Shown piece by piece: positions 3 through 47,590 of a DNA stretch of 47,590 nt. Position 1 is the stretch's first letter. Every line of letters begins with the position of its first letter. The stretch covers positions 1-47,590 of the forward strand of contig JAQBWN010000005.1 of NCBI GenBank assembly GCA_027624555.1, given 5' to 3'. The stretch comes from a bacterium. Lineage in GTDB: Bacteria > Patescibacteriota > Andersenbacteria > UBA10190. The notes under the pieces are model-generated. The model was not told the DNA's origin. It saw only the letters and a list, made by a program, of their open reading frames with translations, and made no database searches. Position numbers and translations under genes: made by a program.

Positions 3-413
3 ACGGCCCCCTCCCCAACCCTCCCCCTAAATAGGGGGAGGGGAGCTGCTCTTCTTAACTTAGCAGACATTTCCACCGTCCCCGTCGCACTTGGCTTGGC
101 TCTCGGCCGTGTGGGTAATATTATTAACCAAGAATTTGGAATATATCCATATTATGAAGCAACGGGCGATGTGTTGATATCGGTGGTGTGCTACATGTTT
201 TTGCGAGTTAGGGGAGGTACGAGTGGGATGACTTTTGCTATATTTCTCTTGCTCTATAGCATCCTCCGGTTTTCGCTAGAATATATACGTCCGCAAGATT
301 GGTCTCTTGTATTTGGCTTGTCGCGTGGGCAATTGTTAACCATTCCTCTCTTTTTACTAGCCGTGATACTGTTGAAAAATGCCTATAAGCACAGAGTTTC
401 AAAAACAGTATAG
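3..413 (+). CDS. lgt: Prolipoprotein diacylglyceryl transferase, C-terminal part (5' end outside window)
   Basis: The frame of ORF 96..413 stays open upstream to the window edge: ...ADISTVPVALGLALGRVGNIINQE... resembles the Lgt GRxGNxxNxE motif, followed by C-terminal hydrophobic helices. The ORF-track start at 96 is an internal TTG. Confidence 0.75.
   Translation, partial: TAPSPTLPLNRGRGAALLNLADISTVPVALGLALGRVGNIINQEFGIYPYYEATGDVLISVVCYMFLRVRGGTSGMTFAIFLLLYSILRFSLEYIRPQDWSLVFGLSRGQLLTIPLFLLAVILLKNAYKHRVSKTV
20..41. repeat. C-rich palindromic hairpin inside the lgt reading frame
   Basis: CCTCCCCCTA-AA-TAGGGGGAGG is a perfect 10-bp stem, read in frame as ..PSPTLPLNRGRGAALL.. Confidence 0.7.
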
Positions 414-3570: not shown

Positions 3571-3775
3571 TCCCCTCTCCCCAATTGGGGAGAGGGTTAG
3601 GGTGAGGGCAGGTTAGATGCTATATCGCTCACTGTAATATTAAAATTTTCAGTTCCAGTGTAAATCGTTTCTGATTAAGAACTATTCGTAGGTATGTATT
3701 CTTCGTTGCACCTGATCTGCCCTCACCCTCCCGCCTTCGGGCGAGGAGCCCTCTCCCCAATTGGGGAGAGGGGAA
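3571..3775. mobile_element. Internally deleted (MITE-like) copy of the DUF559 palindromic element
   Basis: Two copies of the 24-bp palindrome CCCTCTCCCCAATTGGGGAGAGGG (3573-3596 and 3749-3772) bracket inverted GGGTGAGGGCAG.../...CTGCCCTCACCC. The interior shares AATCAGAAACGAT (reverse strand) and a C-terminal coding remnant VSDIASNLPSP* with the full copy at 32.25 kb. Confidence 0.8.
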
Positions 3776-32249: not shown

Positions 32250-32721
32250 TTCCCCTCGCCCTAATTAGGGAGAGGGTTAGGGTGAGGGCAGGTGAGATGC
32301 AATATCTTCTACTACCCCATTAATATTCTTCATCACTTCTGTATTTGTGTATCGCAATACTTGTATGCCGCATACGTTTAAATATTTTGTGCGTTCCCGA
32401 TCATACGATTCTGCGTCTGTCGTATAATGCGAATCTCCATCAATCTCTATCGCTAGATGAAGCTCTGCACAGTAAAAATCAACAACATATCTTCCGAATG
32501 ATTGTTGTCGACGAAACTTATATCCCAGTAATCTCTTATTGCGTAAAAAATACCACAGCCGCTGTTCCGGTTCCGGAACGATTTTTCTTAAATTTCGTCG
32601 TATAGGTGTTGATCGTTTCTGATTATGGATCATTCCCATATATGTATCATACATCGCTTTTTACCTGCCCTCACCCTCCCGCCTGTTGGCGAGGAGCCCT
32701 CTCCCCAATTGGGGAGAGGGG
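32250..32721. mobile_element. Putative complete DUF559-nuclease palindromic element
   Basis: Left end TTCCCCTCGCCCTAATTAGGGAGAGGGTTAGGGTGAGGGCAGGT and right end ACCTGCCCTCACCCTCCCGCCTGTTGGCGAGGAGCCCTCTCCCCAATTGGGGAGAGGGG form composite inverted repeats around a single ORF. Confidence 0.72.
32277..32654 (-). CDS. DUF559 domain (Vsr-like PD-(D/E)XK) endonuclease-like protein
   Basis: PEPEQRLWYFLRNKRLLGYKFRRQQSFGRYVVDFYCAELHLAIEIDGDSHYTTDAESYDRERTKYLNVCGIQVLRYTNTEV; C-terminus ..DIASHLPSP* is encoded by the terminal repeat. Confidence 0.9.
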   Translation of the reverse strand: MYDTYMGMIHNQKRSTPIRRNLRKIVPEPEQRLWYFLRNKRLLGYKFRRQQSFGRYVVDFYCAELHLAIEIDGDSHYTTDAESYDRERTKYLNVCGIQVLRYTNTEVMKNINGVVEDIASHLPSP

Positions 32722-42854: not shown

Positions 42855-45194
42855 ATGTCAGATACACCCTACAATCACGCAGAAATTGAAAAGAAATGGC
42901 AAAAAAGGTGGTCTGACGAAGGTGTGTTTACCACCCCCGACATTCCCACAAAGAAAAAATGTTATGTGCTCGACATGTTCCCATACCCTTCTGGTGAAGG
43001 GCTTCATGTAGGTCATCCAAAGGGGTATATAGCAACGGATATTTATTCACGCATGAAGATGATGCAGGGGTACGACGTACTTCACCCTATGGGATGGGAT
43101 GCGTTTGGGTTACCCGCAGAAAATTATGCCATAAAAAATAAAGTGCATCCGAGTATTGCGGTAGAAAAGAATATCGCACGGTTTAAAGAACAGCTTTCCA
43201 AAATTGGCTTCACGTATGATTGGGGCAGAGAACTAAATACTACAAATCCAGAATATTATAAATGGACACAATGGATATTTTTGCAGTTATATAAAAAGGG
43301 TTTGGCGTATGAAAGTTTTGAACCGATTAATTGGTGTCCGTCTTGCCAAACTGGGCTTGCAAATGAAGACCTGGAGGGCGGGCTTTGTGAGCGATGCGGA
43401 TCGGTGGTAGAAAAACGTCCCATGAGGCAGTGGGTATTAAAAATTACAGACTATGCTGAGAAACTGCTAGACGGATTAGAAAGCCTCCCTTGGCCGAAGT
43501 CTATAAAGATGAGTCAAAAGAATTGGATAGGAAAAAGTGAGGGAGCTGAAATTAGGTTCGACCTGATTCTCCCACCCCCTCTAGCTCCCCCTCGGGCAGG
43601 GGGAGAAAACGCTGTTGACGTTTTTACGACTCGTCCTGATACGCTATTTGGGGTGACGTATCTTGTGTTGGCACCAGAACATATATTAATTCCTGATTTA
43701 TTATCGCGTGCTGAAAATTCTGAAGAAATAAAAAAATATATTCAGAAAGCTGCTAAAAAAACTGAAATAGATAGAACGTCTGAGAGCAAAGAAAAAACGG
43801 GAGTTGAACTAAAAGGGGTTATGGCGGTGAACCCAGCAACAGGAGAAAAAATCCCAGTATGGGTTGCGGATTATGTTCTTGCACATTATGGAACTGGGGC
43901 AATTATGGGTGTGCCTGCATACGATGAAAGAGACAAGCAGTTTGCGGAGAAATTCTCACTACCGATTGTAGAAGTAACTCCCGAGCAAGCAAAGCAAACG
44001 GAACATTTTGGACAAAAGAAAACGCAGTATAAGCTTCGCGATTGGGTATTTTCTCGTCAACGATATTGGGGAGAGCCTATTCCTATTATCCATTGTGAAA
44101 AATGTGGTATAGTTCCAGTTCCAGAAGACCAGCTGCCGGTGTTATTGCCAGAAGTTGAACATTATGAGCCAACCGGAACAGGTGAGTCTCCACTTGCAGC
44201 TATTCCAGATTTTGTAAATACGACGTGCCCGCAATGTTCAGGCGCTGCAACGCGCGAGACAAACACCATGCCCCAATGGGCGGGTTCTAGTTGGTATTAC
44301 TTACGGTTTATTGATCCCAAAAATTCCGAGCAGTTTGTTGATAGCGAAAAAGAAAAAGCATGGATGAATGTTGATTTATATGTAGGCGGTGCAGAACACG
44401 CAACCAGGCACTTAATATATGCCAGATTTTGGCACATTGTGTTGCATGAGCTTGGACTCGTGAGCACACCAGAGCCATTTGAACGTCTTGAGCACGTAGG
44501 GCTAATACTGGCAGAAGATGGGCGCAAGATGAGTAAGCGATGGGGAAATGTCATAAATCCAGACGATGTTGTTCAGAAATTTGGCGCAGATACGCTTAGG
44601 ATATACGAAATGTTTATGGGGCCGTTTAATCAATCTACTCAGTGGAGTACTGCGAGTATTTCTGGCCCAAGAAGATTTATTGAACGAGTGTGGAAAATAC
44701 AACAAAAAACAGGAGAACACACCGACTCACCGGAAGTCTTATCTTCTCTTCACCAGACGATTTCCCGGGTAAGTGAAGATACGCAGAATTTCCGGTTTAA
44801 TACGGCAATTGCAGGAATGATGGAATTATTAAATCTTTTGGAAAAAGAGAAACATATTTCGAAGCACACATTTGAAACATTTTTGTTATTACTTGCGCCG
44901 TATACTCCGCATGTATGTGAAGAACTATGGGAACGACTTGGGAAGACAGGCATGATTTCACGCCACGAATGGCCATTGTATGATGCAGGTCTTGCTGTAG
45001 AAAAAACAGTCAGCATCGCCATCCAGGTAAACGGAAAAGTTCGGGGGGAGTTAGTAGTGGCTCCAGGAGTTTTACAAGAAGAAGTTGAAGCGCTCGCGAA
45101 GAACCTTGATAATGTTTCGAAGCATATTTCTGGAAAAGAAATTCGCAAAGTGATTTTCGTGCCCGGCAAGCTGATAAGTTTCGTATGCGCATAA
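42855..45194 (+). CDS. leuS: Leucyl-tRNA synthetase
   Basis: MFPYPSGEGLHVGHPKGYIATDIYSRM, GWDAFGLPAENYAI, VFTTRPDTLFGVTYLVLAPEH, DWVFSRQRYWGEPIPI, GRKMSKRWGNVINPDDVV. Confidence 0.97.
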   Translation: MSDTPYNHAEIEKKWQKRWSDEGVFTTPDIPTKKKCYVLDMFPYPSGEGLHVGHPKGYIATDIYSRMKMMQGYDVLHPMGWDAFGLPAENYAIKNKVHPSIAVEKNIARFKEQLSKIGFTYDWGRELNTTNPEYYKWTQWIFLQLYKKGLAYESFEPINWCPSCQTGLANEDLEGGLCERCGSVVEKRPMRQWVLKITDYAEKLLDGLESLPWPKSIKMSQKNWIGKSEGAEIRFDLILPPPLAPPRAGGENAVDVFTTRPDTLFGVTYLVLAPEHILIPDLLSRAENSEEIKKYIQKAAKKTEIDRTSESKEKTGVELKGVMAVNPATGEKIPVWVADYVLAHYGTGAIMGVPAYDERDKQFAEKFSLPIVEVTPEQAKQTEHFGQKKTQYKLRDWVFSRQRYWGEPIPIIHCEKCGIVPVPEDQLPVLLPEVEHYEPTGTGESPLAAIPDFVNTTCPQCSGAATRETNTMPQWAGSSWYYLRFIDPKNSEQFVDSEKEKAWMNVDLYVGGAEHATRHLIYARFWHIVLHELGLVSTPEPFERLEHVGLILAEDGRKMSKRWGNVINPDDVVQKFGADTLRIYEMFMGPFNQSTQWSTASISGPRRFIERVWKIQQKTGEHTDSPEVLSSLHQTISRVSEDTQNFRFNTAIAGMMELLNLLEKEKHISKHTFETFLLLLAPYTPHVCEELWERLGKTGMISRHEWPLYDAGLAVEKTVSIAIQVNGKVRGELVVAPGVLQEEVEALAKNLDNVSKHISGKEIRKVIFVPGKLISFVCA
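43566..43609. repeat. C-rich palindromic element embedded in frame in leuS (CP1 region)
   Basis: TTCTCCCACCCCCTCTAGCTCCCCCTCGGGCAGGGGGAGAA; core CTCCCCCT-cgggc-AGGGGGAG; translated ILPPPLAPPRAGGENA just before VDVFTTRPDT. Confidence 0.85.
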
Positions 45195-47530: not shown

Positions 47531-47590
47531 TTCCCCTCCCGCCAATTGGGGGGAGGGTTAGGGTGGGGGCAGGTGAGATGCTATGTCGCT
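47531..47590. mobile_element. Left end of a third DUF559 palindromic element (runs off window)
   Basis: TTCCCCTCCCGCCAATTGGGGGGAGGGTTAGGGTGGGGGCAGGTGAGATGCTATGTCGCT; reverse strand SDIASHLPPP* matches the DUF559 C-terminus. Confidence 0.78.

Follow-up and report, generated by a model that had tools for sequence, protein, structure and literature searches.

The DUF559 unit and its termini

The window analysed here is a stretch of 47,590 nucleotides and forms one entire contig of a 788-kb Andersenbacteria genome that is 99.5% complete. It contains a unit of 468 bp (32253-32720), in which a gene of 125 aa occupies the space between inverted ends, both of them composite palindromes. The ORF (32277-32654, minus strand) matches DUF559 (PF04480) with an E value of 7.8e-35, and a genome search returned it as the only DUF559 gene of this genome. 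The left terminus (32253-32290, plus strand) reads CCCTCGCCCTAATTAGGGAGAGGG-TTA-GGGTGAGGG and consists of a hairpin (32253-32276), the linker TTA (32277-32279), and a third purine strand, GGGTGAGGG (32280-32288). The right terminus (32666-32720, minus strand), when reversed from 32720 to 32666, reads CCCTCTCCCCAATTGGGGAGAGGG-CTCCTCGCCAACAGGCGGGA-GGGTGAGGG. Here, the hairpin (32697-32720) is followed by a second hairpin of 20 nt (32677-32696), which replaces TTA, and by the third strand (32668-32676); otherwise, the two arms are alike. The gene ends inside the left terminus: its stop codon TAA is the TTA linker, and its last codons (..PSP) are supplied by the repeat.

The inverted-repeat score of the unit ends is 20, a value reached by none of 3000 random window positions with the same spacing (99th percentile 11). 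A triplex-motif scan detected seven motifs in the real window versus none in each of five block-shuffled windows. ORF inspection revealed no gene besides DUF559 and no transposase within 32253-32720, and the window's genome gave no match to the Y1 transposase profile (Y1_Tnp, PF01797). A preliminary description of the locus had proposed a DUF559 ORF between inverted GC-rich ends, arms that are equal except for an extra hairpin of about 20 nt on the right, C-terminal codons and a stop taken from the repeat, and the absence of a transposase, all of which we can confirm. The layout it gave for the left end also holds, but the purine arm is TTAGGGAGAGGG and not GGGGAGAGGG.

About 15 further repeat copies are present in the window's genome, according to pattern searches, from which all genome-wide repeat counts derive. 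Most are doublets of 108-115 bp without DUF559, in which a short-linker arm and a hairpin-linker arm are separated by a spacer of 18-19 nt. In the window, an internal-deletion derivative of the DUF559 unit (3573-3772, 200 bp) retains both termini and both edges of the gene region and has lost about 270 bp of the interior. The left part of a third DUF559-derived copy (47534-47590, plus strand) is interrupted by the contig end, and at the contig start lies a triplex motif (5-42, minus strand) with the remainder of its element beyond the contig. The motif scan also detected a triplex motif that stands alone (43574-43605, minus strand) and differs in sequence type, CTCCCCC..GGGGGAG-CTA-GAGGGGG.

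The termini as BoxC/PIT/TM triplex motifs

Known since the 1990s, BoxC/PIT/TM repeats have been found in hundreds of genomes and are linked to genome instability, and their spread is unexplained. Judged by their sequence, the termini of the DUF559 unit are this known intrastrand-triplex motif, the left one being of type A and the right one of type B. The preliminary description correctly saw composite palindromes and missed this identity. In each terminus, the hairpin stem pairs a pyrimidine 5' arm with a purine 3' arm; a linker or second hairpin follows, and then a third strand, also of purines, which is the mirror image of the purine arm. BoxC/PIT/TM motifs likewise combine a hairpin, a short linker (TTA, type A) or another linker (type B), and a third purine strand, and they occur as inverted pairs of A and B in E. 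coli as they do here. The difference is that in this study a nuclease gene lies between the repeats and co-occurs with them, and that one arm bears a second hairpin. The hairpins of our termini were computed, and triplex folding is inferred for them. For an E. coli motif sequence, the triplex fold was demonstrated by CD and NMR (Holder et al. 2015; PMC4666352). The same authors found the motif in more than 260 genomes, with 23 copies in E. coli MG1655, where inverted pairs are always formed by one type A and one type B motif. They noted neither transposase or integrase remnants nor a mobility gene at the E. coli sites and called the mechanism unclear; YcjD and DUF559 are absent from their text.

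The mirror rule was evaluated with one terminus per locus (n = 106 DUF559 loci, many phyla). Third strands scored 6.75 on average against their own stems versus 5.15 ± 0.10 when partners were permuted between loci (maximum 5.57 in 5000 permutations). With asymmetric arms, the mirror fit was better in 84 cases and the parallel fit in 28. As the loci are related to one another, the permutation does not give a strict probability.

No repeat family of Rfam matched at the gathering score. Below this score, the type B terminus (32667-32720, minus strand) has a weak end-to-end match to whalefall-1 (RF01762; 17.8 bits, E 0.012-0.066), and the shared layout is a hairpin, 22-24 nt, and AGGGUGAGG. Whalefall-1 appears in listings as an sRNA and may be a DNA triplex repeat of the BoxC-like kind.

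The DUF559 protein

The AlphaFold2 model of the DUF559 protein has a mean pLDDT of 84.6. Its closest solved structures in Foldseek are 3HRL, then the catalytic domain of I-Bth0305I (E 5e-4, probability 1.0) and Vsr (E 0.03). 3HRL is the gonococcal protein NGO0050, which is itself DUF559-like. E30, D59, E70, D72, and H76 are invariant among 40 sequences. Profile match, fold, and conserved acidic residues are all present as expected for a DUF559/YcjD member of the PD-(D/E)XK superfamily, in which YcjD had already been placed near Vsr (Kosinski et al.; PMC1189080).

I-Bth0305I, a homing endonuclease of the Vsr-like (EDxHD) type, shares the predicted catalytic-domain fold with the DUF559 protein, but the identity is only about 21%. 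To our knowledge, it has not been described with dispersed palindromic repeats. The likeness of DUF559 to homing endonucleases is a fold resemblance only, seen in a model, and any cutting or conversion is inferred.

Association of DUF559 genes with triplex repeats

DUF559 is associated with triplex repeats. In three further genomes of the same genus, DUF559 gene numbers are 3 (G002), 4 (G003), and 0 (G004, a complete genome), and the motif pattern matches number 51, 81, and 1, respectively; the window's genome, with its single gene, has 21. All seven canonical DUF559 genes of G002 and G003 lie between analogous composite palindromes, among which three or more sequence types can be distinguished.

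For a broader survey, an alignment of DUF559 proteins was scanned against genome contigs, giving 80 loci in at least ten phyla. The survey was seeded with DUF559 proteins whose flanking motifs were already known, and it is biased to relatives of the seeds and to best matches. With a purpose-written motif finder, a triplex motif was located within 300 bp of 72 of the 76 usable loci versus 16 of 475 control positions displaced from the same loci. Inward-facing motifs on both sides were found at 42/76 loci and at none of the 475 displaced positions. For the 29 usable top loci of Patescibacteria, the respective numbers were 27 and 16, and for a set of eight DUF559 genes, they were eight and six.

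The preliminary description had named three observations that would refute it: termini missing around DUF559 genes of relatives, the same termini usually flanking unrelated genes, and a lack of empty sites. The first is contradicted by the seven same-genus genes, all flanked, and by the 72/76 loci surveyed elsewhere. Concerning the second, we inspected about 40 stretches picked by motif and not by DUF559. Almost all inward pairs proved to be short doublets, their arms 14-32 nt apart. Only two gaps were large enough for a gene, and these consisted of host sequence lying between separate repeats, rbfA-like in one case and a fragment of a membrane protein in the other. None of these stretches showed arbitrary genes packaged between repeats. 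Empty sites are treated below.

DUF559 domains outside such units exist as well, some of them fused into large proteins (long open frames). Phages gave few and weak DUF559 matches. In Neisseria gonorrhoeae (L131), the DUF559 gene lies between direct, not inverted, repeats of about 100 bp that contain triplex-like motifs. Tandem DUF559 genes about 0.6-0.7 kb apart, possibly tandem units, occur at G251:C13:33253-34138 and G444:C1:4668051-4669056. On plasmids of Synechocystis sp. B12 (L190, L191), DUF559 adjoins DUF1156/BREX pglX-like genes, with flanking motifs on both sides that face outward; no useful close relatives of this plasmid unit were found among the genomes searched.

Co-occurrence at the genome level

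Among 380 genomes of Patescibacteria, 73 had a strong DUF559 match (E below 1e-18). The motif core pattern occurred at least 10 times in 47 of these versus 9 of the 307 others (odds ratio 60, Fisher p 4e-32), with median counts of 14 and 0, respectively. The threshold of 10 was chosen because the ends of the units themselves are included in the counts and any overlapping matches enter twice. A reversed control pattern gave no comparable difference (means 1.9 vs about 0.8), and permutation within the 14 families containing both kinds of genome gave p 0.0002. In 390 cyanobacteria, the association is weaker (88/178 vs 41/212, odds ratio 4.1, p 4e-10). Many cyanobacterial DUF559 domains lie within long proteins, and other repeat families fit the pattern.

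As follows from these counts, at least 10 motifs are also present in nine Patescibacteria, and in many cyanobacteria, that lack a strong DUF559 match. Motif-rich Patescibacteria of this kind include G008 (count 139), G040, G305, G148, and G334; their gene may have been lost or not assembled, or there may be another driver. E. coli was missing from the matching control genomes in the PF04480 search, though ycjD of K-12 is annotated as DUF559. Hence, the family search may give false negatives.

Evidence for mobility of the unit

Over the unit, identity among three Nostoc loci (L081, L088, L101) is 84-96%, and their flanks are unrelated; the right ends of L081 and L101 are identical up to ..GTACACCGTAGCT. 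For three loci of the Desulfuromonadales type (L053, L061, L091), the alignment extends little beyond the unit. A collinear empty site comes from Shinella PSBB067: two stretches that lie 9 bp from each other there are separated in Sinorhizobium sp. K101 by 767 bp, which comprise two repeat doublets and DUF559 (flank identity 82% and 78%). This single empty site shows no recognisable target-site duplication. As the comparison spans two genera, gain and loss cannot be told apart there. With one collinear empty site and one element family in three unrelated contexts, the third refuting observation does not apply, and the mobility of the unit is well supported. Of the mobile nuclease-plus-palindrome unit put forward in the preliminary description, the mobility has good support, while DUF559 as the mobiliser remains an inference.

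The window's unit itself lies at the ileS-recO junction. At this junction, G002 has a repeat of another type without DUF559, and G003 and G004 have other sequence after ileS that is too divergent for an empty site at base level. For the Nostoc locus L101, a joined-flank search placed the flanks on different contigs in the nearest relative.

Proposed explanation and alternatives

We propose that the window's unit represents a small selfish element in its autonomous form and that this element consists of a gene for a Vsr/homing-endonuclease-like DUF559 protein of the YcjD family and two inverted termini that may form triplexes. The dispersed doublets without DUF559 and the internal-deletion copy would be its non-autonomous relatives, as REPINs are to RAYT genes, with an unrelated enzyme. 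The nuclease would recognise the folded termini, as hairpin or triplex, when they are exposed in single-stranded DNA during replication, and it would nick or cut at the termini or at a target, the strand being left unspecified. Host repair or replication could then copy the element into a new intergenic site by a route that we likewise leave unspecified. That DUF559 drives the unit is the simplest reading and a likely one; its basis is packaging and co-occurrence, and no activity has been shown. A wider claim, namely that this is a widespread class of bacterial mobile elements in which a Vsr/homing-type nuclease recognises triplex DNA at its own ends and spreads itself together with BoxC-type repeats, is tentative, and we hold it at slightly less than even chances.

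The main rival is homing or gene conversion: cleavage by the nuclease at a triplex repeat or close to it would be followed by repair with a DUF559-bearing copy as template, for which the repeats provide the homology. DUF559 would then colonise pre-existing doublets without itself dispersing repeats. I-Bth0305I and Vsr being the closest folds after NGO0050 fits this idea, as do units that resemble doublets with a gene in place of the 18-nt spacer. In Legionella, recombination hotspots include segments that carry a transposase together with DUF559 (PMC12308824). However, homing leaves unexplained why genomes rich in repeats are mostly those with DUF559 and why a derivative at another locus retains the gene ends, and we regard it as unlikely. 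The co-occurrence would be expected equally if DUF559 were a repair enzyme of the host, acting on barriers formed by triplexes or hairpins and retained in repeat-rich genomes, while the repeats spread otherwise, and Vsr, its structural relative, is a repair endonuclease. Such a maintenance role does not account for the position of the gene within the unit, for genomes with several units, for the internal-deletion copy, or for units in unrelated contexts, and we consider it improbable.

Least credible to us is that another enzyme acting in trans, a Y1/RAYT or IS transposase, moves the repeats and DUF559 rides along. The repeat doublets do resemble REPINs, and REPINs depend on RAYTs. However, the window's genome lacks a Y1_Tnp match, and Y1 transposases barely predict motif abundance in Patescibacteria (odds ratio only 1.9). 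Motif-rich genomes made up 18/28 of those with DUF559 and without Y1 versus 5/133 of those with Y1 and without DUF559. RAYT/Y1 as the mover is therefore unsupported, and for E. coli sites Holder et al. (2015; PMC4666352) report remnants of neither transposases nor integrases. Among rival movers, only Y1 transposases were tested genome-wide.

The selfish-element reading, with DUF559 as the driver, shares with REPIN/RAYT systems dispersed palindromic repeats that are mostly inverted short-spacer doublets, one nuclease gene bounded by the same repeats, and non-autonomous copies. It differs in having a PD-(D/E)XK Vsr-like nuclease instead of an HUH Y1 transposase and ends that add a third strand mirroring the stem. 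Because the Y1 enzyme is absent, the unit is not a REPIN/RAYT member despite its layout. MITEs are also short inverted-repeat elements and include internal-deletion derivatives of an autonomous copy, but here the composite palindromic ends are of the putatively triplex-forming kind, there is no transposase, and no target-site duplication was recognised.

In the literature on DUF559 or ycjD that our search covered, we found no link to repeats. Preprints and most subscription journals lay outside the search, so the priority of the DUF559-repeat link is uncertain. As far as this search goes, the link between nuclease and repeat had not been made, and it offers a possible answer to how BoxC repeats spread: the nuclease gene sits within the very repeats in question, occurs where they are numerous, and is usually missing where they are not. 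This makes its product a testable enzyme, with K-12 ycjD at hand. The large DUF559 family, whose role is unknown, would thereby gain a function, and the enzyme could be an example of a nuclease that acts on triplex DNA inside cells.

The ycjD locus of E. coli

E. coli ycjD, a DUF559 gene, lies between sapF and fabI with BoxC motifs on its downstream side only, and 3333 of 5426 genomes contain most of the locus. The sapF-fabI interval was ruled out as an empty site because the examined genomes without ycjD have an RND efflux operon (eef) in this place. Between ypfG and tkt (L196-L199), some strains have a BoxC motif and K-12 has a classical REP at the same intergenic place. We rejected this place as a clean BoxC insertion, as it is polymorphic with BoxC replaced by REP. 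Immediately upstream of ycjD, where no BoxC motif occurs, the E. coli loci L129 and L130 carry a long inverted repeat, TCACCTCATTCTGACAAGA..TCTTGTCAGAATGAGGTGA.
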